Below are positions 5,731 through 33,425 of a stretch of 64,000 bases of DNA, piece by piece (within the stretch, counting starts at the first letter, position 1; every line of letters begins with the position of its first letter). The position numbers and the translations under genes are program-made. Source of the DNA: Chromatiales bacterium (GTDB taxonomy: Bacteria; Pseudomonadota; Gammaproteobacteria; Steroidobacterales; GCA-2729495); the NCBI GenBank assembly GCA_020831895.1, contig JAFIFS010000046.1, positions 1-64,000 of the forward strand, in the 5' to 3' direction. The notes beneath the pieces were generated by a model. The model was not told the DNA's origin. It saw only the letters and a list, made by a program, of their open reading frames with translations, and made no database searches.

Positions 5731-5734
5731 CGGT

Positions 5735-8611
5735 TCAGCCTGCTGCCCGGGCTGCATCGACGGGATAACGGCGCGACACAGGCTCCGGGTGCTCGCGCCG
5801 CAGCCACTGGGCAAGCCCGGCAATCGTGGGCGCCTCGAACAGGGCCGTGAGCATGACGGGGTGATCGAGCAGGCGCTGCAGCCCTGTGGTGAGCTGGACG
5901 GCGGCAATCGAATCACCACCCAGCGCGAAGAAGTCGTCGTGCACGCCAATCTGGCCGGCCGGGAGCACCTGCTGCCAGAGTTCGATCAGGTCGGCCTCGA
6001 GCGCATCGGCCGCAGCGACGGGGGCCTGCTCCAGCGCGGGTCGGGTCCAGCCCGGCTCCGGCAGCGCGCGCCGGTCGAGCTTGCCGCTGGCACTCACCGG
6101 CAGCCTCGCGACCGGTACCCAGGCAGCCGGCAGCATCCACGCGGGCAGCTGCGCCGCCAACCAGTCACGCAGGCTGTCCACTGACGGCAAGCCGGCCGGC
6201 GCAGCCAGTGCATCCAGCAGCGCCCGATGCAGCGGGTTGGCGCCACGGCTGGTCTCGCGCTGGCGGCTGACATGCTCCAGGCGCCGCGAAGCCAGCGCAC
6301 CCTGCAACGTCGCGCTGATACGGTAGTCCGGGCAGCGTGGGTCCGATTCACAGCCAATGTGCCAGTGCAGCTCCAGACAGTCACCGGCCTGCACCGGGAC
6401 GGGCCCCGAATCGCCGAGTGGCAGCAGCACCGGCAGCCAGGCCTGCTGGGCCTCGAGGTAGTCGACGCTCGCCCCGGCACCGAAACCGACCACGGTCCAC
6501 AGCAGCAGCCCGTCGAGCAGGCCGTCGCGCGCGATCCGCAGCGTCGCCGCGCCGCTGAATGTGGTCTCCAGCGAGCCGCTGAAGTCCAGCACCTCGAATT
6601 CGGCCACATCGCTGATCAGCTGTTCCGGCGGCAGCCCGCGCACGCACAGGCGCACATCGAAGGGCTCGCCGTTCGCGCCGAAGAGACGCTCGAGGTAAGG
6701 ACGCGCGAGAGCGGCGAAGCGCGGGGACGCCCGTACGGCCGCGGGCAGCTCGACGGCAGCGATTCGCGTGGTGCAACGTTCAGGCACGGCGACGCAGTCG
6801 TCGGCCAGCGCCGGCTGGATGGCATTCCAGAGTGCGACAATGCCGTCGGCGCTGCCGATGTTGCCGATGATGCCCTGGGTCAGCACCTCGACCGGCTCGG
6901 GCAGGTCCAGCGAGGCTGCATCGGCCTCGATCACCGTGATCCGCGCCTCGAGGCCCAGCTGCGCGACGAGTGTGCGTGCGGAGGCAGCGGCCTCGGGCTG
7001 CAGCTCGACCGCGTAGACATGCCTGGCGCCGGCGGCGGCCGCCAGCCGAGCCAGCAGCGCATCGCGGCCGGTGCCCATGTCAAGCACTGCGCGTCCGGCC
7101 ACAGTCCGTGCGAGCGCGTCGCGATAGGCCGCCACCCGTGTGGTCTCGACTCCCATCAGGTCGTAAAGCAGGGGGTCATAAACCTGGTAACCCCCGAGCG
7201 ATGGCCAGAACTCGACCCCGCTGTCCACGTCTGCCTCGTGTTCGAGCCACGCCACCAGTCGCGACTCGCCAGCCGGGTCCTCACGCAGCCCGACCGCGGC
7301 GTCGCGAATGGAGGGGTGCGCCCGCAGCGCATCCTCGATCTCGGACGGCTCGATCCGGTAGCCGTGATGCTTGAACTGGGTATCGAGCCTGCCAGCAAAC
7401 TCAAGCAGTCCCGACTTGTCGCGTTGCGCGAGGTCGCCCGTGCGGAACGCGGGCAGCCTGCGGCCCCCGACCTCGATCTCGACGAAGCGTCGCGCGGTCA
7501 GCTCAGGCTCGGCGGGATAGCCTGCGGCGACGCAGTCTCCGGCCACGCAGATCTCGCCCCTGCCCGGCCCGGCCAGTGGCCGGCCGGCCTCATCCAGCAG
7601 CAGCAGCTCGCGCCCCGCCAGCGGGTAGCCCAGCGGGATACGGCCCGCGCCGTGCTCGGAGGCGCGATGCTCATGCAGGCAGACCTGGCCGCCAGTCTCG
7701 GTCAGCGCGTAGCTGCTGACCAGACGCGGCCCGCCCTCGGGATAGCGGCTGAACCAGGCCTCGAGCTCCGCCGCGCGGACGGGCTCGCCGCTGAGTGACA
7801 CCAGGCGCAAGTCCGCCGGAGCGAGGCGGGCGGCGGCAGAGCTGCCCAGCAGTGTCCGCAGCGCTGTCGGCGTCAGGCTCAGCACGGTCACCCGCGCCTG
7901 CAGCAGCAGCTCGACCAGGGCTCCCGGATCCCTGCGCCGCTCCGGCGGAACGACAACGAGGCAGGCTCCATGCAGCAAGGCACCGAACAGCTCCCACACC
8001 GAGTATCCGAAGGCGCAGGAATGCAGCCAGCTCCAGCGATCGCCTGCCCCGAGGGAAAGCGCCTGCGTCAGCGGGGGGAACAGCCCGGCGAGGTTGCGCT
8101 CGAGCACACGGACCGCGCGCGGCTGACCGGCCGATCCCGAGGTGAACATCACGTAGGCGGTATCGCCGGGTGCGCTGGCACAGGCCACCGTCGCGACTGG
8201 CCCGGCCGGGGCCGCTGCGGACCAGTCGAGCCGCGGGCCATGCCAGGCGACATCGGCATGCTTCGCCTGCCCGAGCAGCAAGTCGGGCGGCACGATCCGG
8301 AGCATCGCGTCCAGCCGGCTGGCGGGCAGGCTGGTATCCAGCGGCATCCAGGCGGCGCCGGTCTTGCGCACGGCCAGCATGGCGACGACGTAATCCAGTG
8401 CGTGGGGCAGCAGGATCGCGACCAGCCTGCCCGGCCCCATGCCCGCATCACGCAGCTTGGCGGCCAGCGTGGTGGCGGCCCGTTCCAGGCCCGCGTAGTC
8501 CAGGCTTCGCGGACCGTCCAGGATGGCCGGCGCTGATGGCCTTTCACAGGCATGACGCCAGACCGCCTGGACCAGGCCCGCCGCCGCAGACTCCATTCGG
8601 GAAACTCTCAC
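5735..8611 (-). CDS. NRPS starter module: adenylation domain interrupted by a PRMT-like methyltransferase, plus carrier domain
   Basis: A 958-residue initiation module with no condensation domain. Residues about 10-425 form an adenylation domain (FTSGSAGQPRAV, YxLTETGG, FRTGDLAQRD, A8 region with HGYRIEPSEIE). About residues 460-755 are an insert with a class I SAM fold (VLDMGTGRDALL near 7050-7090) followed by a beta-barrel-like region, the layout of protein arginine methyltransferases. The adenylation fold then resumes with A9 (LPAWMLP) and A10 (ASGKLDRRALP), then a carrier (FFALGGDSIAAV, Ser near residue 896). The code position 235 is Gly instead of Asp, so the substrate probably lacks a free alpha-amino group. 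The start is GTG at 8611, overlapping the upstream stop as GTGA; ATG at 8596 is an alternative with GAGAG upstream. Confidence 0.93.
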   Translation of the reverse strand: MRVSRMESAAAGLVQAVWRHACERPSAPAILDGPRSLDYAGLERAATTLAAKLRDAGMGPGRLVAILLPHALDYVVAMLAVRKTGAAWMPLDTSLPASRLDAMLRIVPPDLLLGQAKHADVAWHGPRLDWSAAAPAGPVATVACASAPGDTAYVMFTSGSAGQPRAVRVLERNLAGLFPPLTQALSLGAGDRWSWLHSCAFGYSVWELFGALLHGACLVVVPPERRRDPGALVELLLQARVTVLSLTPTALRTLLGSSAAARLAPADLRLVSLSGEPVRAAELEAWFSRYPEGGPRLVSSYALTETGGQVCLHEHRASEHGAGRIPLGYPLAGRELLLLDEAGRPLAGPGRGEICVAGDCVAAGYPAEPELTARRFVEIEVGGRRLPAFRTGDLAQRDKSGLLEFAGRLDTQFKHHGYRIEPSEIEDALRAHPSIRDAAVGLREDPAGESRLVAWLEHEADVDSGVEFWPSLGGYQVYDPLLYDLMGVETTRVAAYRDALARTVAGRAVLDMGTGRDALLARLAAAAGARHVYAVELQPEAAASARTLVAQLGLEARITVIEADAASLDLPEPVEVLTQGIIGNIGSADGIVALWNAIQPALADDCVAVPERCTTRIAAVELPAAVRASPRFAALARPYLERLFGANGEPFDVRLCVRGLPPEQLISDVAEFEVLDFSGSLETTFSGAATLRIARDGLLDGLLLWTVVGFGAGASVDYLEAQQAWLPVLLPLGDSGPVPVQAGDCLELHWHIGCESDPRCPDYRISATLQGALASRRLEHVSRQRETSRGANPLHRALLDALAAPAGLPSVDSLRDWLAAQLPAWMLPAAWVPVARLPVSASGKLDRRALPEPGWTRPALEQAPVAAADALEADLIELWQQVLPAGQIGVHDDFFALGGDSIAAVQLTTGLQRLLDHPVMLTALFEAPTIAGLAQWLRREHPEPVSRRYPVDAARAAG

Positions 8612-10457: not shown

Positions 10458-11129
10458 ATGAGCGAGTCCCGGAAAATTGGCCTGATCGCCGTCATCGGCG
10501 GCACGGGCGCACTGGGCGGCGGGCTGGCCCGCCGCTGGGCTGCCGACGGTTGTGCGGTGGTCCTGGGCTCCCGCGACGGCCAGAAGGCCGAAGCAGCAGC
10601 CCGCAAGCTGGCTGAATCGCTGCCGGGCGGCGATGTGCGCGGCATGGAGAACTCGGCCGCCGCGCTGGCCGCCGACCTCGTCGTGCTGACGGTCCCGTTC
10701 CCGCAGCAGGAGCCCGTGCTCAAGTCCATTGCCGCTGGCCTGGAGGGCAAGATCCTGGTGGACGCGACAGTCCCCCTGGTACCGCCACGGGTCGGCCGGG
10801 TCCAGCTGCCGCCAGAGGGCGCTGCCGCAATCCGGGCCCAGCGGCTGGTTCCTGCAGCGCGGGTGGTCTCGGCGTTCCAGAACGTCGCTGCCGACCGGCT
10901 CGCAGGTTCAGGCACGGTGGACTGCGACGTGCTCGTCAGCGGTGATGACCCGGAGGCACGCGAGACCGTGGTGACTCTCGCTGCGCGGGCCGGGCTGCGT
11001 GCCTGGCATGCAGGCCCGCTGCAGAATGCGGCCGCGGCCGAGGCACTGACATCGGTGCTGATCTTCCTGAACAAGCGCTATGGCGAGGGCCATGCCGGCC
11101 TGCGCATCACCGGCCTCGACGGGGCCTGA
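10458..11129 (+). CDS. fno: F420H2:NADP+ oxidoreductase (NADPH-dependent F420 reductase)
   Basis: Transfers hydride between NADP(H) and coenzyme F420, here presumably charging F420 from NADPH in the cytosol. The 223-residue sequence has the Rossmann motif IAVIGGTGALGGGLARR right at the N-terminus, VVLGSRD for NADP phosphate binding, VLTVPF, LVDATVPL, SAFQNVAA and the C-terminal NKRYGEGHAGLRITGL of the NpdG/Fno family. The start MSESRKIG at 10458 is chosen because it places the Rossmann strand at residue 8; the longer open frame from 10281 is Arg/Pro-rich filler. It is the first gene of the F420 biosynthesis operon, 37 bases before cofE. Confidence 0.95.
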   Translation: MSESRKIGLIAVIGGTGALGGGLARRWAADGCAVVLGSRDGQKAEAAARKLAESLPGGDVRGMENSAAALAADLVVLTVPFPQQEPVLKSIAAGLEGKILVDATVPLVPPRVGRVQLPPEGAAAIRAQRLVPAARVVSAFQNVAADRLAGSGTVDCDVLVSGDDPEARETVVTLAARAGLRAWHAGPLQNAAAAEALTSVLIFLNKRYGEGHAGLRITGLDGA

Positions 11130-11166
11130 TGGAAGACAGCCGGCGGCACTGGCCGCCGGGGTCACG

Positions 11167-11931
11167 ATGGAGCCGCCAGCGCTGTCTGTCTACCCGCTGC
11201 GTCACCTGCCAGAGGTCAGGCAGGGAGATGACCTGGCGGCGTTGATCGCGAACGCAGCCGGACGGGCGGGCTGGTGCTGGATGCCGGGCGATGTGCTGGC
11301 CGTGGCCCAGAAGATCGTATCCAAGGCAGAAGGCCGCCTGGTGCCGCTGCGCGAGATCCAGCCATCCGCCGCGGCGTTCGAGATGGCGAGCCGCGCCGAC
11401 AAGGACCCGCGAATCGTGGAGCTGATCCTGCGCGAGTCGCGCTCCATCCTGCGGGTCACTCGTGGCGTCATCATCGCGGAACACCGCAGCGGCGTGATCC
11501 TCGCGAATGCCGGAATCGATCGCTCGAACACGGGGGTGGACGAGGAAAGCGTTCTGCTCCTGCCCGAGGATGCCGACGCAAGCGCCGCGCGAATCCGCGC
11601 TGGCCTTGCCTCCGCCCATGAGCTGGCCCCGGCCATCCTGGTGACCGACAGCATCGGCCGGCCCTGGCGGCTGGGCACCACCGGCGTTGCGATCGGCTGC
11701 GCCGGGCTGCCGGCGCTGGTCGATCTGCGCGGGCAACCGGACCGGGCGGGCCGCGCCCTGCAGGTGAGCGAGATCGCACTGGCCGACAGTCTTGCCGCAA
11801 CGGCGGTGCTGACCATGGGAGAGGGCGCGGAATCCACGCCGGCGGCGCTGCTGCGCGGGATGCGCTTGCCGGCAGGCAGTTCAACGGCCCTGGCACTACT
11901 GCGTGCGCCCGGAGAGGACCTGTTCCGGTGA
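11167..11931 (+). CDS. cofE: Coenzyme F420-0:L-glutamate ligase
   Basis: GTP-dependent ligase adding gamma-linked glutamates to F420-0. At 254 residues it matches stand-alone CofE and lacks the C-terminal nitroreductase-like domain of mycobacterial FbiB. Visible family motifs: GDVLAVAQKIVSKAEGR (near residues 40-56), GVILANAGIDRSNTG (118-132) and VTDSIGRPWRLGTTGVAIG (159-177). The ATG at 11167 gives MEPPALSVYPLRHLPEV, the expected N-terminus; an upstream in-frame ATG at 11080 lies inside fno. Its stop overlaps the GTG start of cofD (GTGA). Second gene of the operon. Confidence 0.95.
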   Translation: MEPPALSVYPLRHLPEVRQGDDLAALIANAAGRAGWCWMPGDVLAVAQKIVSKAEGRLVPLREIQPSAAAFEMASRADKDPRIVELILRESRSILRVTRGVIIAEHRSGVILANAGIDRSNTGVDEESVLLLPEDADASAARIRAGLASAHELAPAILVTDSIGRPWRLGTTGVAIGCAGLPALVDLRGQPDRAGRALQVSEIALADSLAATAVLTMGEGAESTPAALLRGMRLPAGSSTALALLRAPGEDLFR

Positions 11932-12914
11932 GCCACGATGAACACTGGCTGCTGCTCTGCGGCGGCGTTGGAGGCGCGAAGCTTGCGCTGGGACTGGCGC
12001 ACGAGCTCCCGCCCGGGTCGCTGACCGTGCTGGTGAACACCGGCGATGATTTCCGCCACCTGGGCCTCTGGATTTCGCCGGACCTCGATACGGTGACCTA
12101 TACCCTGGCTGGCCTGGTCAACCCGGCAACGGGCTGGGGCCTGGCCGGGGATACGTTCCACTGCCTCGAGGGGCTGTCGAGACTCAGCGGGCCCGACTGG
12201 TTCCGCCTGGGCGACAGGGACCTCGCGACGCACCTCGAGCGCACGCGCCGGCTGGCGGCCGGAGAGCGGCTGGGATCGATCACATCGGACCTGGCGAGTC
12301 GCCTCGGTGTCAGCGCCAGGATCTGGCCGATGAGCGACGACCCGGTGGCCACGCTGCTGCATACCGATTCGGGGCTGCTGGAGTTCCAGGACTATTTCGT
12401 CCGCAGGCAGGCCGCGCCGGTCGTGCGGGCCATCGAGTACCACGGCGCCAGTGAAGCCGGACCCGCGCCCGGCCTGGCAAACCTGCTGAAGGACCCGGGG
12501 CTGGCCGGAATCATCATCGCACCATCGAACCCCTGGCTCAGTATCGACCCGATCCTGGCCCTGCCGGGCCTGCGGCAGTCACTCGCCGATGCACGGGCTC
12601 CGGTGGTCGCTGTCAGCCCCCTGATCGCCGGGCAGGCCGTCAAGGGGCCCAGCGCGAAGATCATGCGCGAGCTGGGGCTTCCGCCAGACGCGCAGGGCAT
12701 CGCGCGTCACTATCTGTGCCTGCTCGACGGCTTCATACTGGATGACAGGGATGAAGCCGAGGCGGCAGGCATCGGCCTGCTGGGACTGGAGACGGTGGCT
12801 GCACCCACGCTGATGCGTTCGCTCGACGACCGCCGCAGTCTGGCGCGCGTCGCCTTGGGTCTCGCACGGCGGCTGGGCAACTCAATAGGCAGGCCACACC
12901 GGCAGACAGGTTGA
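11928..12914 (+). CDS. cofD: F420-0 synthase, phospholactyl/phosphoenolpyruvyl transferase
   Basis: Transfers the activated phospho-acid from a GDP donor to the deazaflavin Fo, giving (dehydro-)F420-0. The 328 residues show the GGVGGAKLALGL nucleotide motif near residue 11, VNTGDDFRHLGLWISPDLDTV (36-56) that binds donor and Fo, PSNPWLSIDPIL and SPLIAGQAVKGPSAKIM near 220, all diagnostic of CofD/FbiA. Length is normal. The start is GTG, coupled to the cofE stop; the stop is 7 bases before cofC. Which phospho-acid (2-phospholactate, PEP or 3-phosphoglycerate) is used cannot be settled from sequence by eye. Confidence 0.96.
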   Translation: MSHDEHWLLLCGGVGGAKLALGLAHELPPGSLTVLVNTGDDFRHLGLWISPDLDTVTYTLAGLVNPATGWGLAGDTFHCLEGLSRLSGPDWFRLGDRDLATHLERTRRLAAGERLGSITSDLASRLGVSARIWPMSDDPVATLLHTDSGLLEFQDYFVRRQAAPVVRAIEYHGASEAGPAPGLANLLKDPGLAGIIIAPSNPWLSIDPILALPGLRQSLADARAPVVAVSPLIAGQAVKGPSAKIMRELGLPPDAQGIARHYLCLLDGFILDDRDEAEAAGIGLLGLETVAAPTLMRSLDDRRSLARVALGLARRLGNSIGRPHRQTG

Positions 12915-12921
12915 TCGAACG

Positions 12922-13587
12922 ATGACGCAGCTCCGAGCCCTCGTCCCAGTGAAGCCGTTCGCCCGGGCCAAGAGCCGTCTGGCAGGACGCCTCGGGCGCG
13001 ACGCGTGCGCCGAGCTGGCCCGCTGCATGCTGCGCGACGTGCTGCGCGCGCTCTTCGCCGCCGAGGACATCGCGGGCATCGTACTGCTCAGCAACGAGCC
13101 CGGGCTGGACAGCCTGCCAGAGACGCGGGACTGCGAGATCCGGCGCGAGACCGGAGATTTCTGCAGCTCGCTCGACAGCGAGGCCAGGCGCCTCGCCGCG
13201 GAGGGCAACCAGAGCCTGCTGGTGCTGCCGGCTGACCTGCCTACCGTGGCCGGGCGGGACATCCGCGCACTCTGGCAGAGCCATCACGGCGGGTTGACGC
13301 TGTGCCGGGCCGGCCGCGACGGCGGCAGCAACGCGCTGCTGTTGACCCCGCCGGACGCCATCAGCTTCCGGTTTGGTCCGGACAGCGCTGCCAGGCACGC
13401 CGAGGCTGCGCGGTCAGCCGGGGTGGCCTGCGAAGTCCTGGACCTGCCGGCGTTCGCGAATGACATAGACATGCCGGCGGATCTAGACTGGCTTCTGGAG
13501 CAGCGGATCGCATCGGCCAGCGTGGCCTGGCTGCGCGCGAGCGGGATTGCGGCGCGGCTGCGAGACGCGAGACAGGAGGTCTGCTGA
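12922..13587 (+). CDS. cofC: Phospholactate/phosphoenolpyruvate guanylyltransferase
   Basis: Makes the GDP-linked phospho-acid donor used by CofD. The 221-residue sequence has the nucleotidyltransferase start RALVPVKPFARAKSRLAG, LPADLPTVAGRDI near residue 100 with metal-binding Asp, DGGSNALLL, and FANDIDMPADLDWLL at the C-terminus, as in CofC/FbiD. The gene overlaps fbiC by one base (TGATG), so the two are coupled. Some proteobacterial CofC proteins use 3-phosphoglycerate and make 3PG-F420; a structural comparison of the substrate pocket is needed to say which type this is. Confidence 0.94.
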   Translation: MTQLRALVPVKPFARAKSRLAGRLGRDACAELARCMLRDVLRALFAAEDIAGIVLLSNEPGLDSLPETRDCEIRRETGDFCSSLDSEARRLAAEGNQSLLVLPADLPTVAGRDIRALWQSHHGGLTLCRAGRDGGSNALLLTPPDAISFRFGPDSAARHAEAARSAGVACEVLDLPAFANDIDMPADLDWLLEQRIASASVAWLRASGIAARLRDARQEVC

Positions 13588-15545
13588 TGATGTCCCCAGG
13601 GCGTGACGAGCTGATCGAGCTGGGCCAGGCACCGCTCGACGAACTGATGGCCGGCGCCGCGGCGTTACGCGACGCGGCGCATGGCGCAACGGTGACCTGG
13701 TCACCCAAGGTTTTCATACCACTGACCGAGCTGTGCCGCGACGTCTGCCACTACTGCACCTATGCCAAGACGCCGGGTCGTCTCGCTGCTCCCTACATGA
13801 CACCGGAGCAGGTGCTTGCCATAGCGCGCGCCGGTCAGCAGGCTGGCTGCCGCGAGGCGCTGTTCACGCTCGGCGACAAGCCCGAGCTGCGCTACCGCGT
13901 GGCGCGTGAGGCGCTGGCCAGCCTCGGTCATGCGACGACGACCGACTACCTCTCAGCCATGGCGCGGCTGGTGCTCGAGAAAACTGGCCTCTTGCCTCAC
14001 CTGAACCCCGGCGTGCTCGAAGAGGACGACTATCGGCGTCTGCGTCCACTGGCTCCTTCCATGGGGCTGATGCTCGAATCAGCCTCCCCACGTCTGGCCC
14101 GGCGTGGCGGACCTCACTTCGGATCGCCCGACAAGCAACCCCAGGTGAGGCTTGACTCGCTGCGTGCCGCCGGCAAGGCCGGCGTGGCTATGACCAGCGG
14201 GCTGCTGATCGGCATAGGCGAGACCCGTGAGGAGCGCATCGACAGCCTGCTCGCCCTGCGCACGCTGCATGAGGAGTACGGCCACCTGCAGGAGCTCATC
14301 CTGCAGAACTTCGTACCGAAACCAGGCACGCTGATGGCCGGCGCCCCGGCACCTGCGTTCGAGGAACTGCTGTGGACGGTCGCGATCGCCCGCCACGCTT
14401 TCGGCGGCGGTTTCAGCCTGCAGGCGCCTCCGAACCTCAACGCCGGCCGCCTCGCCCGGCTGGTCGATGCCGGCATCAATGACTGGGGCGGCGTCTCACC
14501 CGTGACGCCGGACCACGTCAATCCGGAGTCACCCTGGCCTCACCTGGCCGAGCTGGAGGCCGCGACAGCCGAGGCCGGCAAGACGCTGGTGCCGCGACTG
14601 ACTCTTTATCCTGCGATGGTTCGGGAGCCGGACCGCTGGATTGCACCCGAACTGCGCACGCACGTGCTGCGCGCGGCCGACAGCAGCGGGTTCGCCCGGG
14701 ACTGCCCATGGTCCCCAGGCAGCGGCCAGCCGCCCCCGCCGGCGATCCCGGCCGGTCCACGGCGCGACCGCTTCATCGAAACCCTTCTCGGGCGTATCGC
14801 CCAGGGCAAACGCCCCGACGAGGCCGACATCAGCCGGCTGTTCTCCGCCCGGGGCCCGGACCTCACGCACGTGATCCGGGCAGCCGACGAAATGCGCGCG
14901 GCCCAGGCAGGTGAGCAGGTGAGCTATGTCGTCAATCGCAACATCAACTACACGAACCTCTGCAGCTACCAGTGCAGTTTCTGTGCGTTCTCCAAAGGCC
15001 GCACGCACGAGGACCTGCGGGGAGCACCCTACGTGCTGGACATGGAGGAGATCGGAAGGCGCAGCGCGGAAGCCTGGGCGCGTGGCGCGAGCGAGGTCTG
15101 CCTGCAGGGAGGGATCCACCCGTCATTCACAGGCCGCACCTACCTGGACATCCTTGCCGCCGTCAAGGCAGCGGCGCCGGGCCTGCACGTGCACGCGTTC
15201 TCGGCGCTAGAGGTCAGCCATGGCGCAAAGACTCTCGGCATCAGCGTCGCGGAGTTCCTCGCCGAGCTTCGGGTCTCGGGCCTGGCCTCGTTGCCTGGCA
15301 CGGCGGCAGAGATCCTGAGCGACGACATCCGCGCAGTGATCTGCCCGGACAAGCTGAACACCGGGGAATGGCTTGCAGTGGCCCGGCAGGCCCACGAACT
15401 GGGCCTGCGGACCACGGCAACCATCATGTTCGGCCACGTGGAGCATCCCGTGCACTGGGCCAGGCACCTTCTCGCGATCCGGGACCTCCAGGCTGAGACC
15501 GGTGGCTTCACCGAATTCGTACCCCTGCCCTTCGTGCACATGTAA
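13587..15545 (+). CDS. fbiC: FO synthase FbiC (CofG-CofH fusion), interrupted by an in-frame TAA in CofH
   Basis: Radical SAM fusion that joins tyrosine and a ribityl-uracil to form Fo, the F420 chromophore. The CofG half has its cluster motif CRDVCHYC near residues 48-55. The CofH half begins after a Pro-rich linker near residue 395 and has CSYQCSFC near residues 457-464. The frame stops with TAA at 15543-15545 directly after PLPFVHM, a point where intact FbiC/CofH proteins continue with a conserved (E/N)xPLY segment. The next codons in the same frame (APLYRGGGARPGPT...) encode exactly the missing part, so the normal protein of about 787 codons is split by a single codon. Fusion length, motifs and operon position are otherwise normal. 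Confidence 0.93.
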   Translation: MMSPGRDELIELGQAPLDELMAGAAALRDAAHGATVTWSPKVFIPLTELCRDVCHYCTYAKTPGRLAAPYMTPEQVLAIARAGQQAGCREALFTLGDKPELRYRVAREALASLGHATTTDYLSAMARLVLEKTGLLPHLNPGVLEEDDYRRLRPLAPSMGLMLESASPRLARRGGPHFGSPDKQPQVRLDSLRAAGKAGVAMTSGLLIGIGETREERIDSLLALRTLHEEYGHLQELILQNFVPKPGTLMAGAPAPAFEELLWTVAIARHAFGGGFSLQAPPNLNAGRLARLVDAGINDWGGVSPVTPDHVNPESPWPHLAELEAATAEAGKTLVPRLTLYPAMVREPDRWIAPELRTHVLRAADSSGFARDCPWSPGSGQPPPPAIPAGPRRDRFIETLLGRIAQGKRPDEADISRLFSARGPDLTHVIRAADEMRAAQAGEQVSYVVNRNINYTNLCSYQCSFCAFSKGRTHEDLRGAPYVLDMEEIGRRSAEAWARGASEVCLQGGIHPSFTGRTYLDILAAVKAAAPGLHVHAFSALEVSHGAKTLGISVAEFLAELRVSGLASLPGTAAEILSDDIRAVICPDKLNTGEWLAVARQAHELGLRTTATIMFGHVEHPVHWARHLLAIRDLQAETGGFTEFVPLPFVHM

Positions 15546-22029: not shown

Positions 22030-22713
22030 TCAGTTGACCCCGAGGTGACGCAGAAGCTGCCGCGCCAGGGCGATGTTGGAGGAGATCACCGGCACGGGCA
22101 TCCTCTCCTGCGCAATCATGATCGCCGCGAGCGACGGCATGCCGGTGCCCGAGACGACGACCGCATCGATCCCGGAGGTATCCACCCGGGCCAGTGCAGC
22201 GGCGGCATCGGCATTGCCGAGCGCATAGATGCGGTGCGTATCGGCCGACCCTGTATCGACCCTGACGGTCTGAACGACGCGATGGCCGCGGCCGTTCCAC
22301 CAGTCCACAGCGGCTGCGGCGAGTGGCTCCGGATAAGGTATCACCAGCGCGATGCGGCTGGCGTCGCAGGACGCGAGCTCGGCGCCAATGGCATCGCAGG
22401 CCGTGATTACAGGGTAGTCGATGTCGAGCGAGGCAAGCAGACTTGCCTGTCGCCCGGGGCCCAGCAGGTAACTCGAGCCCGTGCAGGCAAACCCGAGCAC
22501 GTTCAGCGGCATGCCGCCGTAGCTCGCGATCGTCGCCGGCAACTGCTCCAGGTAATCCTGCAGCCGCTGCATGCTGTCGGGCGAGGCGCTGTAGAGCCGG
22601 CTGGTCTGCATGTTGACCCGCGAAGGCAGCAGCTGGCGAAACTCCGCCTCCACGGTGGGGTTCGCCTGTGGCGTTGCCACACCCGCCAGCAGTTTCGCCG
22701 GGGGCAGCATCAT
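22030..22713 (-). CDS. Asp/Glu racemase superfamily protein, maleate cis-trans isomerase or arylmalonate decarboxylase-like
   Basis: A 227-residue soluble enzyme. It has the two-cysteine/serine architecture of the superfamily in altered form: the first site lies in LGFACTGSSYLLG (near residue 73, Cys-Thr-Gly-Ser-Ser) and the second position in VVVSGTGMPSL (near 187) has Gly-Thr-Gly where racemases and maleate isomerases carry the second Cys. The loss of the second Cys resembles arylmalonate decarboxylase, which uses one Cys. N-terminal GVATPQANPTVEAEF matches maleate isomerases (TPSSNTVxE). The ATG overlaps the LLM stop as ATGA. Likely acts on a small dicarboxylate or arylmalonate, but no substrate can be named. 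Confidence 0.8.
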   Translation of the reverse strand: MMLPPAKLLAGVATPQANPTVEAEFRQLLPSRVNMQTSRLYSASPDSMQRLQDYLEQLPATIASYGGMPLNVLGFACTGSSYLLGPGRQASLLASLDIDYPVITACDAIGAELASCDASRIALVIPYPEPLAAAAVDWWNGRGHRVVQTVRVDTGSADTHRIYALGNADAAAALARVDTSGIDAVVVSGTGMPSLAAIMIAQERMPVPVISSNIALARQLLRHLGVN

Positions 22714-23723
22714 CCGCCCACTGCCGGCACGATCTCGCGCCCGAGCAGCCGTATCGTGCGTGCTGGCCGGGCATACAGACGCAGCGCCACGCTGTCGAGT
22801 CCTGCCCGTCCCAGTTCCTCGATGTGGCTGAGCAGCGCGTCGGGGCGTGCCGGAGTGATGCAGACCGTCAGTGCGCCGACCAGCCTGTCGAGCAGCGCCA
22901 CGGGTACACCCTCGACCCGGTCACTGCCGCTGACGAAGGCACGTACGAATGCGGGACGACTCAGCATCACCAGTTCCACCTCGGCTGGCTCCAGAAAGTC
23001 CGCCAGCAGCCAGGGCCGGAATATGCCACGGAGCAGGAGCCAGCGCCTCGCCTCGGCACGAGCCAGATCCATGTCGTCGTCGACATGCAATGCGGTGAAC
23101 ACGCTGGCGCCGAAGGCCGGGCGCGCCTTCCGCCGTTCCCTGAGCGCCTCGTCCAGAGAGGCCACTGCCCTGGCGGCAGCGGCTGGCGGCATGTCGCTCA
23201 TCATGACGCCATCGGCGACGCGTGCGGCCATGCCAAGCATCTGCTGCTGGCTGGCGCCGACCAGCAGGAGCGGCGCCGGCGCCCTGGACCAGCCGAAACG
23301 CACGCCGGCAACCTGGTAGATCTCCCCGGAGTGGCTGACAGGCTCGCCGCTGGCTGCCTGGCGCAGAATCGCGACGGCCTCGGCCACCGCGCGCACGCGC
23401 CGGTGCGGCTTGATGCCCAGGGAATCGAGCGCCTCGCCACCGCCACCCAGTACGAGGCGCGCCCTGCCCCCGGCAAGCTCGTTCAGCGCCAGCAGCGCGG
23501 AGGCGATGCGCACCGGGTGCGTGTCAAACGGGTTGACCGCAACCGGCCCCAGCCGGAGCCTGCGCGTCGCCATCGCCATCGGGACCAGGTTGGTGAAAGG
23601 GTCGCGGGAGTCCGGCAGACTCGATACCCAGGCGCCCTGCAGGCCGAAGCGCTCGGCCAGCACACCCAGTCCGGCGAGTTCCCGGGCCTCGGCGCGGGCA
23701 TCAAGGATCACGTCGAGCTTCAC
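22710..23723 (-). CDS. LLM-class oxidoreductase, F420-type (paralog A)
   Basis: A 337-residue bacterial luciferase-like TIM-barrel enzyme, probably using reduced F420 (or FMN) to reduce or oxidise an organic substrate. Blocks seen: LGVLAERFGLQGAWVSSL, RDPFTNLVPMAMATRRLRLGP-type segment, VRIASALLALNELAGGRARLVLGGGGEAL and VADGVMMSDMP. These match two other proteins in this window (31234-32265 and 32388-33425), so the three form one paralogous subfamily. The start is GTG at 23723, overlapping the upstream LLM stop (GTGA); the longer frame to 23816 adds an Arg-rich N-terminus and is rejected. Third gene of the minus-strand operon. Confidence 0.9.
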   Translation of the reverse strand: MKLDVILDARAEARELAGLGVLAERFGLQGAWVSSLPDSRDPFTNLVPMAMATRRLRLGPVAVNPFDTHPVRIASALLALNELAGGRARLVLGGGGEALDSLGIKPHRRVRAVAEAVAILRQAASGEPVSHSGEIYQVAGVRFGWSRAPAPLLLVGASQQQMLGMAARVADGVMMSDMPPAAAARAVASLDEALRERRKARPAFGASVFTALHVDDDMDLARAEARRWLLLRGIFRPWLLADFLEPAEVELVMLSRPAFVRAFVSGSDRVEGVPVALLDRLVGALTVCITPARPDALLSHIEELGRAGLDSVALRLYARPARTIRLLGREIVPAVGG

Positions 23724-24754
23724 AGCAGCACCTCGGCGAGAAGCTCCAGCGCCTCGACTGACGAGGTGGCTGCGAGCAGCGCGCCGACGTGGCCCGCGCG
23801 TCCGGCCTCGCGCCATGTTTCGAGCCGCTCGCGAATCCTTCCCGGCGGCCCGACCAGCGCAATCTCGTCGACCAGCCGGTCGGGTACGGCGGCAGCAGCA
23901 GCGTCGCGTTCCCCGGACAGGTAGAGCGACTGGATCCGGTCGGCCGCGGCCTCGTATCCCATGCGCACGACGTAGTCCTTGTAGAAGTTCCGGTGACGCG
24001 GACCCATGCCACCCACATACAGCGCCAGATGTGCGCGCACCGGAGCACGGCAGGCTGCGAGATCTTTTCCTGGCACCACTGGCACGAAAGGCGCGACCGT
24101 GAACGCCGCGGGGTCGCGTCCTGACCGGCTGAACCCCTGATCCAGGTGAGGGCCGAGCAGATCGAAGCGCTCCGGGTTCATCCAGATCGGAAACACTCCG
24201 TCGGCGACCTCAGCGGCCGTGCGCAAGCCCGCGGGCGTAACGGCAGCCGTGTAGATCGGCAGGGCGGGGTCGCCATGCAGTATGCTCTTCAGCGGCTTGC
24301 CAAGGCCCGTAGCCCCGGGCCCGTCCCACGGGATGCGGTAGTGCTCGCCCCGGTGGGTCAGCGGTGCATCACGCGCGAGGATCTTGCGGATGATCGCGAT
24401 GTACTCACGGGTGCGCGCCATCGGCTTGCCGTAGGGCACGCCATACCATCCCTCCACCACAGCCGGGCCTGATGGCCCGATGCCCAGCAGGAAACGGCCC
24501 CCGGAGAGCGCGTTCAGCGTCATCGCGGTCATGGCGGCGCAGGTCGGGGTGCGCGCCGGTATCTGCATGATCGCGGTACCTACCCGTATCCGGGTGGTGC
24601 GCGCGAGGATGAAGGCAGCCGGTGAGACTGCATCGCTGCCATAGGCTTCCGATGTCCATACCGAGTCGTAGCCCATCGACTCGGCCGCCATCACCAGCGG
24701 CCAGGGAACGTCGATGGCAGCCGGCGAGTACCCGGCAACTAAGCCGAGCTTCAA
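23720..24754 (-). CDS. LLM-class F420-dependent oxidoreductase, second subfamily
   Basis: A 344-residue luciferase-like enzyme of a different subfamily from the three paralogs. Family features: MAAESMGYDSVWTSEAYGSD near residue 22, IRVGTAIMQIPARTPTCAAM, LSGGRFLLGIGPSGPAVVEGW near 85, and PIYTAAVTPAGLRTAAEVADG near 168, the layout of F420-dependent enzymes such as glucose-6-phosphate dehydrogenase relatives in actinobacteria. The start is TTG at 24754, overlapping the stop of the coiled-coil gene as TTGA, so it is translationally coupled despite the weak initiator. The physiological substrate is unknown; the linked isomerase and methyltransferase suggest a small-molecule pathway. Confidence 0.9.
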   Translation of the reverse strand: MKLGLVAGYSPAAIDVPWPLVMAAESMGYDSVWTSEAYGSDAVSPAAFILARTTRIRVGTAIMQIPARTPTCAAMTAMTLNALSGGRFLLGIGPSGPAVVEGWYGVPYGKPMARTREYIAIIRKILARDAPLTHRGEHYRIPWDGPGATGLGKPLKSILHGDPALPIYTAAVTPAGLRTAAEVADGVFPIWMNPERFDLLGPHLDQGFSRSGRDPAAFTVAPFVPVVPGKDLAACRAPVRAHLALYVGGMGPRHRNFYKDYVVRMGYEAAADRIQSLYLSGERDAAAAAVPDRLVDEIALVGPPGRIRERLETWREAGRAGHVGALLAATSSVEALELLAEVLL

Positions 24755-25498: not shown

Positions 25499-26119
25499 TC
25501 AGGACCCCTGATCCGTTGCCAGCGGCCCGGGATGCGTCGCGACCCACGGGAAGTATTCCGTGATCCGCATAGCGGGCCGTCCGCCGACCAGCAGACGGTA
25601 GCATCGGGCGAGGAACTCGCCCTCGCTGGCCATGGCAGCCTCCTCGGGGAGTCCGTCGCGGCGCAGGCGCCCGAACCACAGCCCCTCGCGGCGGCTTTCC
25701 ACCGCGGCGGCATCGAGAATCTGTCCCAGCCCCCCGGAGGACCCGGACAGTGCGTCCTGCAGGCCTGCAGGCAGTCGGCCGGGCAGAATGAGCGACTCGG
25801 CGTACAGGAAGAATCTCCCGCTGGTCGCGCCACTCAGAATCACGGTCCGCTCAATGACGGGGCCGTCGAAGGGGGAGCCCAGCCAGTCATCCTGCAGGCT
25901 GCGCTCGACCTGCCGCTGCCGGACCAGTCGCACGCTGACGGGCTCGAGCGCCCATGCCTCCAGCAGTCGGGTCACCGTGCCATCCGCAACGAGCAGCACC
26001 CGCTGCCAAGGTGTCAGTCGCGCGACTTCGACTGGCTGGACGCCCGGTGGCCGCGCACCGTGGTAGAGCGGGGCCGCAGGGTCGAAGGAGGTTTGCGTGG
26101 CGGTCGTCGTGGACTCCAT
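25499..26119 (-). CDS. Chorismate lyase-like protein (UbiC/DUF98 fold)
   Basis: A 206-residue protein with the chorismate pyruvate-lyase pattern: LTPWQRVLLVADGTVTRLLEAW followed by PVSVRLVRQRQV, then RTVILSGATSGRFFLYAESLIL and a C-terminal RCYRLLVGGRPAMRITEYFP. In characterised members these segments carry the Arg and Glu that bind chorismate and produce 4-hydroxybenzoate (UbiC) or 3-/4-hydroxybenzoate in secondary metabolism. I prefer the ATG at 26119 (MESTTTATQTSFDPA); an upstream TTG at 26149 is possible. It is divergent from the tandem hydrolase gene and separated from the coiled-coil gene by about 200 bases. It could supply a hydroxybenzoate for ubiquinone or for an aryl precursor. Confidence 0.82.
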   Translation of the reverse strand: MESTTTATQTSFDPAAPLYHGARPPGVQPVEVARLTPWQRVLLVADGTVTRLLEAWALEPVSVRLVRQRQVERSLQDDWLGSPFDGPVIERTVILSGATSGRFFLYAESLILPGRLPAGLQDALSGSSGGLGQILDAAAVESRREGLWFGRLRRDGLPEEAAMASEGEFLARCYRLLVGGRPAMRITEYFPWVATHPGPLATDQGS

Positions 26120-26197
26120 CGTTGTAATGTACCGGACCGGGCCAGCCAAGGGTCAACGACAGCCCAGTCCGGGTCAGCAATGAGCGAAGGCAGCAAG

Positions 26198-27847
26198 ATG
26201 AGCAACCAGCCGAGCCGGCATTTCGTCACCATCAGGAGCCCCAGTGGCACGCGGCAGGTGCATTACCGGCGCAGCGGCCACGGCCCGCTGCTGCTGCTGC
26301 TGCACCAGTCACCGCAATCCTCCCGCGAGATGATGCCGCTGATGCGCGACTGGTCGCGGTCATTCACGCTTGCCGCACCCGATACTCCGGGCTATGGCCT
26401 GTCTGACCCGCTGCCCGACCCGGGGGAAGGGCTGGCAGCCTTCGCGCGCGCGACCCTGGAGTTCGCCGATGCAATCGGCGCAAGACGATTCGGCATATAT
26501 GGCTTTCACACCGGCGCAAGCATCGGCATGGCGCTGGCCTCGATGGCTCCGGAGCGAGTGACCGCTCTGGCCTGCAACGGCCTCATCCTGCCGGAGCCCC
26601 ACGAGCGGGCCGAACTGCTCGATCACTACCTGCCCCCGCTGGTGCCACGCTGGGACGGCGCCCACCTGGGCTGGGCCTGGGCACGGCTGCGCGAACAGGC
26701 GCTGTTCTTTCCCTGGTACCGGCGCGAGAGCGCAGCGCGACGTGACTGCGACCTGCCTGGGCCGGAGAACCTCCAGCAAAGCCTGATCGAACTGCTGACT
26801 TCCGGGGATCACTACGCCAGCGCCTATCGAGGCGCGTTCGCGCACGACACCCGGGCGGACCTGGCGCGGCTCAGCACCCCGGCGCTGGTGATCGCCTCGG
26901 CGCACGACCCACTCGCCGGGCATATCCCGCGTCTGGACGGCGGCTGCAGTGCCGAGCGACGGATTGCCCCCGACGCCGGCGCAGCCCTGGCCGCCGCCTA
27001 TGCGCACCTGCTTGCCAACCCCGGGGATCCGCCCGGTCGGGCAACCTCGGTTCCGGGCGGTGACCGGTGGCGCGAACTGGTGGCCGATGGTCACGGCGGA
27101 CAAGCCTGTCTGCTGCACACGGGCGCTGCCGACGGGCAGCCACTGCTGCTGCTCCATGCGCCTGGCTCCGCCGCCGAGCTGCTGGCCGCTGAAGCAGGAT
27201 CGCTGCCCGGGAAGTTTCACATTGTCATGCCTGACCTTCCGGGCCACGGAGCCAGTGACAGGCTGCCGGGAGACAGCCCGGACCTGGTGGAGGCGACGCT
27301 GGGCACGCTGGAGTCGATCCTGCATCAGTCCCCGGCCAGTACGCGTAGCGCAGGCATCGAAGCCGGCGGGCTGCTGGTCGCCGAGGCAGCGCGCCGCGCG
27401 GGCAGGCCCACGACCTCATTGCTCGTGGACCCGCCCCTCTGGAAGGCCGAGTACCGTGCAGAGTGGCGCACGCAGGGTCTGCCGCCGCTGACCCCGGCCT
27501 GGCATGGCGGGCACCTGGCGGAGTACTGGCACCTGGTCCGCGACAGCTGCCTGTTCTTTCCCTGGTATCGACGCAGCCGGGATGCCATCCTCCAGCAGGT
27601 GCCGGCACTTGAAGACCGCCTGATGCAAGAGCGCGTGGTCGCCATGCTGCAATCGCATGGCCACTGGCAGGCGCTGCTCGATGGCCTGCTTGCACAGGAC
27701 TGGCGCGAATACACGGGTTTGCTGCCTGCCTCCCGCATCGCCTGGACCAACGCACAGGCCTCGGTGGCAGGGAAGCGGATGAGCGAGGCGCCAGAGCCAC
27801 GGCGGCACTTCCCGGAGCTTTCCGCGGCGCTGTCGGCACTCGAGTGA
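26198..27847 (+). CDS. Tandem duplicated alpha/beta hydrolase fusion
   Basis: About 549 residues containing two complete alpha/beta hydrolase folds. Domain 1 (about 1-290): GPLLLLLHQSPQSSREMM oxyanion region, DTPGYGLSD, and the elbow IYGFHTGASIG. Domain 2 (about 300-549): PLLLLHAPGSAAELL, DLPGHGASD and the elbow AGIEAGGLL. Each carries the same lid element (GxHL...W..LR(E/D)..LFFPWYRR), near 26660-26730 and 27505-27565, which proves internal duplication. At the nucleophile position domain 1 has His (a GxHTG variant known in this family) and domain 2 has Glu, so neither is a classical serine hydrolase. The start ATG at 26198 has GAAGG upstream; ATG at 26180 is an alternative. Substrate unknown. 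Confidence 0.88.
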   Translation: MSNQPSRHFVTIRSPSGTRQVHYRRSGHGPLLLLLHQSPQSSREMMPLMRDWSRSFTLAAPDTPGYGLSDPLPDPGEGLAAFARATLEFADAIGARRFGIYGFHTGASIGMALASMAPERVTALACNGLILPEPHERAELLDHYLPPLVPRWDGAHLGWAWARLREQALFFPWYRRESAARRDCDLPGPENLQQSLIELLTSGDHYASAYRGAFAHDTRADLARLSTPALVIASAHDPLAGHIPRLDGGCSAERRIAPDAGAALAAAYAHLLANPGDPPGRATSVPGGDRWRELVADGHGGQACLLHTGAADGQPLLLLHAPGSAAELLAAEAGSLPGKFHIVMPDLPGHGASDRLPGDSPDLVEATLGTLESILHQSPASTRSAGIEAGGLLVAEAARRAGRPTTSLLVDPPLWKAEYRAEWRTQGLPPLTPAWHGGHLAEYWHLVRDSCLFFPWYRRSRDAILQQVPALEDRLMQERVVAMLQSHGHWQALLDGLLAQDWREYTGLLPASRIAWTNAQASVAGKRMSEAPEPRRHFPELSAALSALE

Positions 27848-30340: not shown

Positions 30341-31216
30341 ATGGTCATGCCATTCGAGACAAAGATCGACTTCAAGAGCCCTCGCTGGAACCGGGATGCC
30401 TGGTCCCGCATCCAGGGTGACATGGATCCGGAGAAGGAGCGGATCGGCTACTGCAGCGGGCTGGTACTGGGTGTGAAGCCCGGCGAGAAGGTTCGCGAGC
30501 TGCTCGGATTCGAGACCTTTCTTGCCACCCGTCTGATCCCGCTGCCGGACGGCAACATCCGCCGGCTCAACAAGGAAGTGATCTACTACACCGACGTCCG
30601 GCACGGGCGCCCCGGTGACATCATCGAGGAGTGGAAGAACCCCTGGACGGAGGAAACCGTCAATGTGGTACAGGTGTTCAACGATCCGTTCAACTACACG
30701 ATCAGCGACTACCTGATCCTGGCGCCGGAGGATTTCCCGGGTGATCGGAGCAAGCTGCCCAAGATCCCGCTGATCTTCCCGTGGCAGGAGCTGACCGACG
30801 ACATCCTGGTGCTGCAGACGGACATGCACCTCAACTACCCGAGCCCGCTGCAGCCCGACAAGTGGCCGCGCGAATCCGCCGGCACGCATGCGCAGGTCTC
30901 GGAGATGATGCGCTACTTCGTCTCACGCAGGGACCTGGAAAACCCGGCGCTGAGCGCGGTGCCCTACCACGGCACCTGGCACCGCGTGACGCCCTGGCTG
31001 CCCTGGATGCTCATGGGCCAGACTCCGGGACACTGCGTCTACACCTCGACAATGGCCAGCCTGGAGTCGGTCGAGCAGCTCCCGCGCAAGGTGCTGGACT
31101 ATACGGAGAAGCACCGCCCGGAAATGCTGAAGGCTCCAACCGAGGACTACGGCCCGAGCCATTCCAGTCTCGAGCACTACGCGCGCGACCAGAAGCCGGC
31201 CCCGGTTAAGACCTGA
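30341..31216 (+). CDS. DUF1838 family protein
   Basis: A 291-residue soluble protein of the DUF1838 family (function unknown). Recognisable segments are YCSGLVLGVKPGEKVRELLGFETF near residue 37, VNVVQVFNDPFNY, the Trp-rich end (TWHRVTPWLPWMLMGQTPGHCVYTS near 223) and the charged C-terminus. No signal peptide and no known cofactor motif are visible. GAGGAAG lies about 8 bases before the ATG. The gene is bounded by a divergent GntR regulator and a convergent LLM-class enzyme, and the whole island 22-33 kb is rich in F420-type oxidoreductases, so a role in the same catabolic chemistry is plausible but unproven. Confidence 0.85.
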   Translation: MVMPFETKIDFKSPRWNRDAWSRIQGDMDPEKERIGYCSGLVLGVKPGEKVRELLGFETFLATRLIPLPDGNIRRLNKEVIYYTDVRHGRPGDIIEEWKNPWTEETVNVVQVFNDPFNYTISDYLILAPEDFPGDRSKLPKIPLIFPWQELTDDILVLQTDMHLNYPSPLQPDKWPRESAGTHAQVSEMMRYFVSRRDLENPALSAVPYHGTWHRVTPWLPWMLMGQTPGHCVYTSTMASLESVEQLPRKVLDYTEKHRPEMLKAPTEDYGPSHSSLEHYARDQKPAPVKT

Positions 31217-31233: not shown

Positions 31234-32265
31234 TCAGCCTTCGCCCTGCACCTGCCCGCCGATGGCGGGCAGGATTTTCTCGCCGATCAGCCGGATCGAT
31301 CGCGCCGGCTCCTGGCGCAGCTCCAGGGCCACGTGCGTCAGCCCGGCATCCTGCATCGCGCGCAGGTGGCCGATGATGGACGGCAGATCGCCATGGTCGC
31401 CGGTCAGCGTAAGGTTCTCGACCAGCGCGTCAAGGATGCGGTCGGGCACTCCGGGCACCACGGGCTCAGCCATCTGCGCAGCGGCGTAGATCCGTTCGCG
31501 GTTCGCCTCGATGATGTCGTAGTCCTCGTCGCAAAGGAACGCCGTGATCACCCAGCGGCGAAACAGGCCACGGTAACCAAGCCACTGCCGGGCCTCGCGG
31601 ACCGCCTGGGCACGATCCTCATGCACGTGCCAAGCCATGAAATTGCTGAACATGAAGGCCCCGGCATCACGCCCGGCGGCGGCAGCGGCTACCCGGACGC
31701 GCTCTATGGTCGCCGCAGCCAGGCCTGGGGGAAGGTCGCTCATCATGATGCCATCAGCGGCCCTGGCCGCCATGCGCAGCATCTGCGGCTTGTTCGCCGC
31801 GACGAATATGGGCGGGGGCGTGGCCGTGGCCCAGGCAGGCCGGTAAGCCTTCACACGGAACAAGCGCCCCGCGTAGTCCAGAGCGCGGTCGGGTCTTGAC
31901 GCCTTCAGTATCTCAACGCATTCGCGCACGGCGCCTACACGAGGCTCCGGCCGGATGCCCAGAGCCTGCAGCGCCTCCCCGCCCCCTCCAACCACGATGG
32001 CAGCGCGGCCATCCGCAAGCTCGTTCAGCGTCAGCAGGCCGGTGGCGATCCGCAGCGGATGAATGTCCCAGGGATTCACGGCGACCGGGCCAAGCCGGAT
32101 GCGGCGCGTTGCACGTGCCAGCAGCACCAGGTTGGCGAAGGGGTCACGTGAATCCAGGTAACTGGCAGTCCAGATCCCGTTGATGCCATATTCCTCGGCC
32201 ATGCTGCCCAGCAAGGCCAGCTCATCGGCCGACAGACGAGAATCGAGGATCAGGTCGATCTTCAT
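31234..32265 (-). CDS. LLM-class oxidoreductase, F420-type (paralog B)
   Basis: A 343-residue luciferase-like enzyme closely resembling the proteins at 22710-23723 and 32388-33425. It shares LGSMAEEYGINGIWTAS, SRDPFANLVLLARATRRIRLGP, NPWDIHPLRIATGLLTLNEL, the Gly-rich VVGGGGEALQALGI and GIMMSDLPPG. A TIM barrel with a Gly-rich loop after strand three suits F420 or FMN binding. The ATG at 32265 is chosen because MKIDLILDSR begins the first barrel strand and GAGGA lies about 10 bases upstream; the longer frame to 32358 is filler. It is divergent from paralog C across a 122-base shared control region. Confidence 0.9.
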   Translation of the reverse strand: MKIDLILDSRLSADELALLGSMAEEYGINGIWTASYLDSRDPFANLVLLARATRRIRLGPVAVNPWDIHPLRIATGLLTLNELADGRAAIVVGGGGEALQALGIRPEPRVGAVRECVEILKASRPDRALDYAGRLFRVKAYRPAWATATPPPIFVAANKPQMLRMAARAADGIMMSDLPPGLAAATIERVRVAAAAAGRDAGAFMFSNFMAWHVHEDRAQAVREARQWLGYRGLFRRWVITAFLCDEDYDIIEANRERIYAAAQMAEPVVPGVPDRILDALVENLTLTGDHGDLPSIIGHLRAMQDAGLTHVALELRQEPARSIRLIGEKILPAIGGQVQGEG

Positions 32266-32387
32266 GCGCCAAGCATCCTCCCCGAACGGCCTTGCGGCAA
32301 GGGCGGCGATCGACAGCCGGACAGGCGCCCCGCCAGGGCACGGCCCGGGCTGGCACAAGGCTGCCCGTCATGCTCTGATCGCATCTC

Positions 32388-33425
32388 ATGGACATCCAGT
32401 TCGTTTTTGAGCCTGACTCGCCGGAACGCCTGCGGGACCTCGGCCTGCTGGCCGAGAGTCTCGGCTTCGGCGCGGTCTGGCTGCCCAATATCCTGTCCGC
32501 GCGGGACCCGTTCCTCGCGCTCTCGCTTCTGGCACGCGCCTCGCGCCGCATCCGGCTTGGCCCAGTGGCGATCAGCCCCTTTGAACTGCATCCGGCAAAG
32601 ATCGCGAGCTCACTGCTCTGCCTCAACGAGCTGGCCCGCGGACGGGCCAGCCTCGTCCTGGGCGGGGGTGGGGGAACGATGATCGCGCTGGGCCTGAAGC
32701 CCGACCGGGGCAGCACGGCGCCGCGCATGCTGCGCGGGGTCCGTGAGGGCCTTGAGATCCTGCGTGGCGCTACCGGCGGCGGGCCGGTCAACCACCACGG
32801 AGAACTGTTCCGCGTCAATGACTACAGGCCATCCTGGGCCGGGGAACGTCCGCCCCTGCTCTATGTAGCGGCCAGCAAGCCCAGGATGCTGCAGCTGGCC
32901 GGGCAACTCGCCGATGGCGTTATGTTCAGTGACGTGATGCCGGAGGACCTGCCGGCAGCGCTGCGGTCCCTGGATACGGGCCTGGCGGCCTCGGGTCGTG
33001 CCCGCAAGCACTTCCGTGTGAACAACCTGGTCGCCTGGCACGTGAAACCTTCGCGCGAGGAGGCCTACCGGGAAGCACGAACCCGGCTCTGGGTAAGGGG
33101 CATCTGGGACCCTGCCCGTCTGGCTCATTGCCTGCCCGAGGACGAGATCGCGCTCGTCATGGCCAGGCTGCCCCAGCTGGCGGCCGCATACTCCATGGGC
33201 AGGGACCCTGCGGACCTGCTGCCGGATGCCGTACTGGACCGGATGGTCGATGGCCTCACGCTGACCGGGGCCGTGCGCGATATCGACCGGCTGAGCGAGC
33301 GACTGCTGGCCTTCGTGAGCGCGGGCATCGGGGAACTCAGCCTGAGACTCTACGGCGAGCCCGGCGATGCGCTGCGACGGGTTGCCGAGCGCGTGCAGCC
33401 TGCGCTGCGCCAGGCAAGGACCTGA
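32388..33425 (+). CDS. LLM-class oxidoreductase, F420-type (paralog C)
   Basis: A 345-residue enzyme of the same subfamily as paralogs A and B: MDIQFVFEPDSPERLRDLGL start, LLAESLGFGAVWLPN, RDPFLALSLLARASRRIRLG, PAKIASSLLCLNEL and LVLGGGGGTMIALGL with five glycines. It departs from the others in lacking the DS before RDPF and in having NILSA there, so its substrate pocket probably differs. It is divergent from paralog B; the two starts face each other, which suggests co-regulation. No partner gene follows closely on the plus strand. Confidence 0.9.
   Translation: MDIQFVFEPDSPERLRDLGLLAESLGFGAVWLPNILSARDPFLALSLLARASRRIRLGPVAISPFELHPAKIASSLLCLNELARGRASLVLGGGGGTMIALGLKPDRGSTAPRMLRGVREGLEILRGATGGGPVNHHGELFRVNDYRPSWAGERPPLLYVAASKPRMLQLAGQLADGVMFSDVMPEDLPAALRSLDTGLAASGRARKHFRVNNLVAWHVKPSREEAYREARTRLWVRGIWDPARLAHCLPEDEIALVMARLPQLAAAYSMGRDPADLLPDAVLDRMVDGLTLTGAVRDIDRLSERLLAFVSAGIGELSLRLYGEPGDALRRVAERVQPALRQART

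Follow-up and report, generated by a model that had tools for sequence, protein, structure and literature searches.

A two-domain alpha/beta-hydrolase-like protein with a conserved histidine at its first nucleophile elbow and a degenerate second domain

The two-domain gene and its predicted structure

The window analyzed here is a stretch of 64,000 nucleotides from a contig of a Chromatiales bacterium. It encodes a two-domain His-elbow alpha/beta-hydrolase-like protein of 549 amino acids at 26198..27847 (+), with an alternative ATG start at 26180. The longest open reading frame (ORF) in this frame starts at 24797, and homologues begin near 26198. Domain 1 (26198..27052, +) is an alpha/beta-hydrolase fold with an elbow His, identified by structural matches and by Pfam family PF00561 (E 1.1e-14, 55.1 bits against a gathering score of 25.8). 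Domain 2 (27053..27844, +) is a degenerate copy of the fold and probably a non-catalytic partner; it was modeled separately and matches PF12697, also above the cut-off (E 1.4e-6, 29.6 bits, gathering score 26.3). Aligned with one another, the two domains share 28% identity (E 2e-19). These matches bear out the original prediction of one ORF with two homologous hydrolase domains.

The elbow of domain 1 reads GFHTG, with His104 at 26507..26509 (+), and the second elbow reads GIEAG, with Glu388 at 27359..27361 (+). A Ser, Asp, or Cys nucleophile is absent from both. The lid of each domain ends in LFFPWYRR, located at 26702..26725 (+) in domain 1, at the end of helix 155-169, and at 27551..27574 (+) in domain 2. 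Both elbows and both lids stand in the ORF translation as first described. The exact match between the lids is partly coincidence, since domain 1 keeps FFPW nearly without change and both domains likewise keep PW, whereas YRR is variable. No NCBIfam equivalog cut-off is reached; the best partial match is PcaDC (75.9 bits, cut-off 390), and PcaD scores 56.2 (cut-off 255.85).

The full-length model has a mean pLDDT of 89.5 and a pTM of 0.91. According to DSSP of the model, His104 lies between beta5 (98-103) and helix 105-116, which is the nucleophile elbow. Asp237 (26906..26908, +) lies just after beta7 (229-234), the usual place of the acid, and both assignments agree with row conservation. After strand 253-257, the window protein has a loop free of His. 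The original prediction was to fall if a normal Ser or Asp nucleophile lay elsewhere; for domain 1, such a hidden nucleophile was rejected on the model, which has His104 at the elbow and the Asp in place.

The core strand order, with the elbow after beta5, is found by DSSP in both domains (Z up to 25.6 and 22.3). The best structural match of domain 1 is 3kxp (Z 25.6, 3.2 A, 245 residues), followed by the enol-lactonase 2xua (Z 25.4, 2.6 A, 241 residues), DxnB2 (4lyd; Z 24.6, 2.8 A, 243 residues), and BphD (2og1; Z 24.1, 3.0 A, 254 residues). These four matches are ties. Domain 2 modeled alone has a mean pLDDT of 85.9, and its best match is 1a88 (Z 22.3, 2.7 A, 238 residues).

The protein shares with the alpha/beta-hydrolase superfamily (PF00561 / PF12697) the common fold, the oxyanion segment after beta3, the elbow turn, and the acid Asp after beta7. 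It differs in the elbow His, in the absence of the triad His after beta8 from domain 1, and in the fused degenerate copy. The ordinary triad and elbow of these hydrolases are described in PMC7034887. The structures matched by domain 1 include the C-C (meta-cleavage product) hydrolases BphD, MhpC, HsaD, and DxnB2. This class relies on a Ser nucleophile together with a triad His, as seen in structure titles that name S105A, S112A, S114A, and H265Q mutants, whereas domain 1 has neither. Solved structures that rank high by sequence include fluoroacetate dehalogenases and soluble epoxide hydrolases, which use an Asp nucleophile (titles name Asp110 mutants) and have no His elbow in the printed alignments. 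By titles and printed alignments, no member of the His-elbow family was recognized among the solved structures listed.

Conservation of the elbows and the wider family

In 58 of 60 related genomes, the protein search gave matches (E <= 0.001, single-domain matches included), and 40 two-domain ORFs were recovered from loci taken out of related genomes. When genome contigs were scanned with guidance from a profile, 197 of 242 pattern matches proved to be relatives. Of these, the best 80, together with the window protein, form the 81 rows used for conservation. The 80 kept relatives are from Gammaproteobacteria and some Alphaproteobacteria, mostly metagenome-assembled. Two-domain homologues, for which the original prediction had proposed a search, thus exist in dozens of genomes, and neither the two-domain layout nor the elbow His is a product of chance. 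In a phylum-wide sample of 398 genomes, the profile reached 1e-20 in only 25, and in most of these through just the N-terminal part common to ordinary hydrolases. Single-sequence scans of viral contigs and genome contigs were unproductive. Two contigs titled Klebsiella pneumoniae (L091 and L103) carry the two-domain gene; these titles look mislabeled, because the records are metagenome-assembled and the genes resemble those of other loci.

Domain 1 has an invariant elbow His, retains the acid Asp behind beta7, and has lost the His after beta8. His104 is present in 80/80 rows that reach the position (the remaining row is a fragment with a gap), Thr105 and Gly106 are as fixed as His104, and Asp237 is present in 81/81 rows. 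This agrees with the earlier claim of an unusual elbow residue in the first domain of a double hydrolase, and that residue is not Ser, Asp, or Cys in any of the 80. The patterns used for fetching sat in the HQSP and FFPW stretches and not in the elbow, so conservation of those stretches is biased and that of the elbow is not.

In domain 2, conservation of the elbow is lost and the lid is kept. Position 388 is G in 36 of the 81 rows, W in 26, N in 8, E in 6, Q in 3, and R and K in one each. An alignment of 78 rows was made by removing three of the 81: a fragment and two rows whose length was odd or whose letters were partly unresolved. Of its 34 invariant columns, domain 1 holds 28 and domain 2 holds 6, and the domain 2 lid residues Trp444, Arg448, Pro455, and Trp456 are invariant in it. 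As far as sequence conservation can tell, the two elbows are unequal, with one His-elbow domain and one degenerate partner. The idea of a tandem His/Glu pair as a functional unit did not survive, as Glu occupies the second elbow in so few rows. Domain 2 looks like a partner that has no catalysis of its own but whose lid is still important, and Glu388 appears incidental.

A similar loss is found in the Ndr family (NDRG), which has an alpha/beta-hydrolase fold without a working triad, like domain 2. NDRG proteins are catalytically dead alpha/beta hydrolases. The family was matched weakly, below cut-off, and by two single-domain relatives only. To our knowledge, no two-domain fusion occurs in the Ndr family.

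Single-domain relatives of domain 1 bear GHHTGA, GSHTGA, or GTHTGA at the elbow, and one of them is encoded in the window's own genome. In a mixed alignment of 128 domains, 78 rows are from domain 1 and 50 are single-domain. The elbow His is present in 102 of the 128 (78 domain-1, 24 single-domain), and the acid Asp in 101 of these 102 (23/24 for the single-domain rows). The column of the beta8 His was set by 21 controls, 20 with an Asp elbow and one with a Ser elbow, mainly from one clade. The triad His after beta8 is found in 20/21 controls vs 3/102 His-elbow rows (0/78 domain-1, 3/24 single-domain). One more single-domain His-elbow row has a His nearby but outside this column, and some His lies within 4 columns of the beta8 site in 5/78 domain-1 rows. 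Judged from these alignments, domain 1 belongs to a wider family in which the elbow His and the acid Asp are kept and the triad His is mostly lost.

Other elbow residues in the mixed alignment are Ala (3), Leu (1), and Trp (1), the last in a domain-2-like fragment. Ala or Leu replaces the elbow His in four single-domain relatives (L046, L047, L063, and L171), so some relatives do without the His. The domain arrangement also varies. A two-domain relative in G038:C114 (L042, ORF 4293-6503, -) has GTHTGA at both elbows. Two Azospirillum plasmid proteins (L177 7227-8843 and L189 6227-7846) have the degenerate domain ahead of the His-elbow domain; A. lipoferum is among the carriers of this reversed order.

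A quick tree places domain 1 among the single-domain His-elbow rows. The domain-2 sequences group together (22 rows, support 98), as do the ordinary hydrolases (20 rows, support 100). Several branches are long, including that of the window's domain 2 (1.79), which makes their placement unsure.

Gene neighborhood

A DUF1838 gene lies downstream at 30341..31216 (+) and is a recurrent neighbor. It is found in 16 of 81 loci, in most of them downstream and on the same strand. Where coordinates are comparable, DUF1838 is within 10 kb in 15 of 28 two-domain places, always downstream and co-directional. The window's 2.8 Mb genome has 14 DUF1838 copies, and the family is present in 28 of 40 relatives and in 0 of 14 control genomes. 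The neighborhood signal stems partly from the shared ancestry of the genomes, and, with DUF1838 so abundant in them, the binomial figure calculated for the 28 places is not to be read as a probability.

Plasmids provide independent support for the association with DUF1838 and luciferase-like genes. On a Novosphingobium P6W plasmid, a single-domain elbow-His gene is followed by DUF1838 after 80 bases. On a Streptomyces plasmid, such a gene is followed by a luciferase-like (LLM) oxidoreductase after 45 bases. The other plasmid cases examined have neither gene directly adjacent. On two sphingomonad plasmids, the two-domain gene is located beside MFS, TonB-receptor, FAD-oxidoreductase, and isopropylmalate-dehydratase-like genes, neighbors that suggest a role in catabolism. 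Open-literature searches for tandem pseudoenzymes and for plasmid pJE1 were unproductive.

In the window, two luciferase-like (LLM class) oxidoreductase genes are at 22710..24754 (-), and two further ones are divergent, at 31234-32358 (-) and 32388-33425 (+). In line with the first pair is a gene for an arylmalonate decarboxylase / EutA-like protein (22033-22713, -), which scores below equivalog cut-offs.

The divergent neighbor of the two-domain gene, at 25499..26149 (-), is a chorismate lyase-like gene (PF01947), probably a source of 4-hydroxybenzoate. Direct detection shows it next to the two-domain gene and pointing away from it in the window and in 13 of the 80 named loci. Of 40 family genomes, 30 have a single match each and 10 have none, and the gene occurs in three genomes (G001, G009, and G033) that have no two-domain match. 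It was considered as a pathway partner, but on these grounds it may be a housekeeping gene that shares the divergent spacer.

Genes for coenzyme F420 biosynthesis (cofE, cofD, cofC, and cofGH) are found at 11080..15545 (+), a cluster in a genome that is gammaproteobacterial to judge by its relatives. In cofGH, the CofH half has an in-frame TAA at 15543-15545, after which the frame is open to 15950; the stop is either real or an assembly error. Dependence of the hydrolase on F420 was rejected. Two-domain copies are present in five genomes without a cofE match (G015, G021, G037, G048, and G052), so the hydrolase does not need F420. At 5735-8611 (-) is a single-module protein with an AMP-binding domain, a methyltransferase-like stretch, and a phosphopantetheine carrier domain.

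Mechanism and alternatives

Our first choice is a fusion of an active His-elbow domain with a degenerate partner, in which a His104-Asp237 dyad replaces the Ser-His-Asp triad. It is held tentatively, at a little under even chances. The elbow imidazole would stand in for the missing base, and His104 would act as a general acid/base on a substrate held beneath the lid. The reaction may belong to a catabolic pathway, as a lyase step, a lactone opening, or a C-C cleavage; that pathway would also use DUF1838 and often luciferase-like oxidoreductases. Domain 2 may stabilize domain 1 or provide part of the lid or pocket. General acid/base action ranks first, a covalent acyl-His intermediate is its main mechanistic rival, and a pure binding role is possible.

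The triad is destroyed in both domains, and in a few relatives Ala or Leu replaces the elbow His. Both observations would fit a binding protein or pseudoenzyme, in which the fold binds a ligand as a sensor or carrier. Against this reading, the elbow His and the acid Asp stay near-invariant both in domain 1 and in single-domain rows with a His elbow, whereas the elbow of domain 2 in the same chain drifts. The genes also often sit among catabolic enzymes, and non-catalytic binding is considered unlikely, though it is the strongest of the alternatives.

A covalent role for His104 comes close behind and is slightly less likely again. The imidazole would attack a carbonyl, an acyl-imidazole would form in the ordinary oxyanion hole, and water would resolve it. 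Acyl-imidazoles are self-activated, so a second His would be unnecessary, in keeping with the loss of the separate base. In the model, the His is exactly at the nucleophile position, and domain 1 retains the oxyanion segment HQSP, a stretch whose conservation is biased because it lay in a fetching pattern. Against this, we know of no covalent His nucleophile in the alpha/beta-hydrolase fold, and none was found in the open literature searched. Within that open literature, no paper on a His-elbow alpha/beta hydrolase or a GxHTG motif was found, nor any assay of a family member.

A metal enzyme is improbable. His104, the lid residue His156, and Asp237 could form a two-His-one-carboxylate site, and all three are invariant in the 78-row two-domain alignment. 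Among single-domain His-elbow rows, however, His156 is kept in 16/24 and is Gln or Tyr in 8/24, whereas Asp237 stays in all but one. A division of labor between His and Glu in two catalytic domains, to which the conserved lids of both would lend themselves, is strongly disfavored by the variable second elbow and is the most doubtful reading of all.

A broader claim, held with somewhat less confidence than the dyad itself, is that the family may represent a new catalytic class within the fold. The catalytic His would in effect have moved from the beta8 loop to the elbow and formed a dyad with the old Asp, and one branch would have become fused to a pseudo-hydrolase. If the dyad is true, a branch of one of the largest enzyme folds does without the nucleophile that defines the fold. 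The Ala and Leu elbows, the double-His tandem, and the His elbows that have or lack the beta8 His would then form a natural series on the rebuilding of a triad. The recurrent DUF1838 partner is also a handle on the little-studied DUF1838 family. The open-literature search returned a single paper, which names a DUF1838 gene only in a table, that of an antibiotic cluster (PMC5031334).
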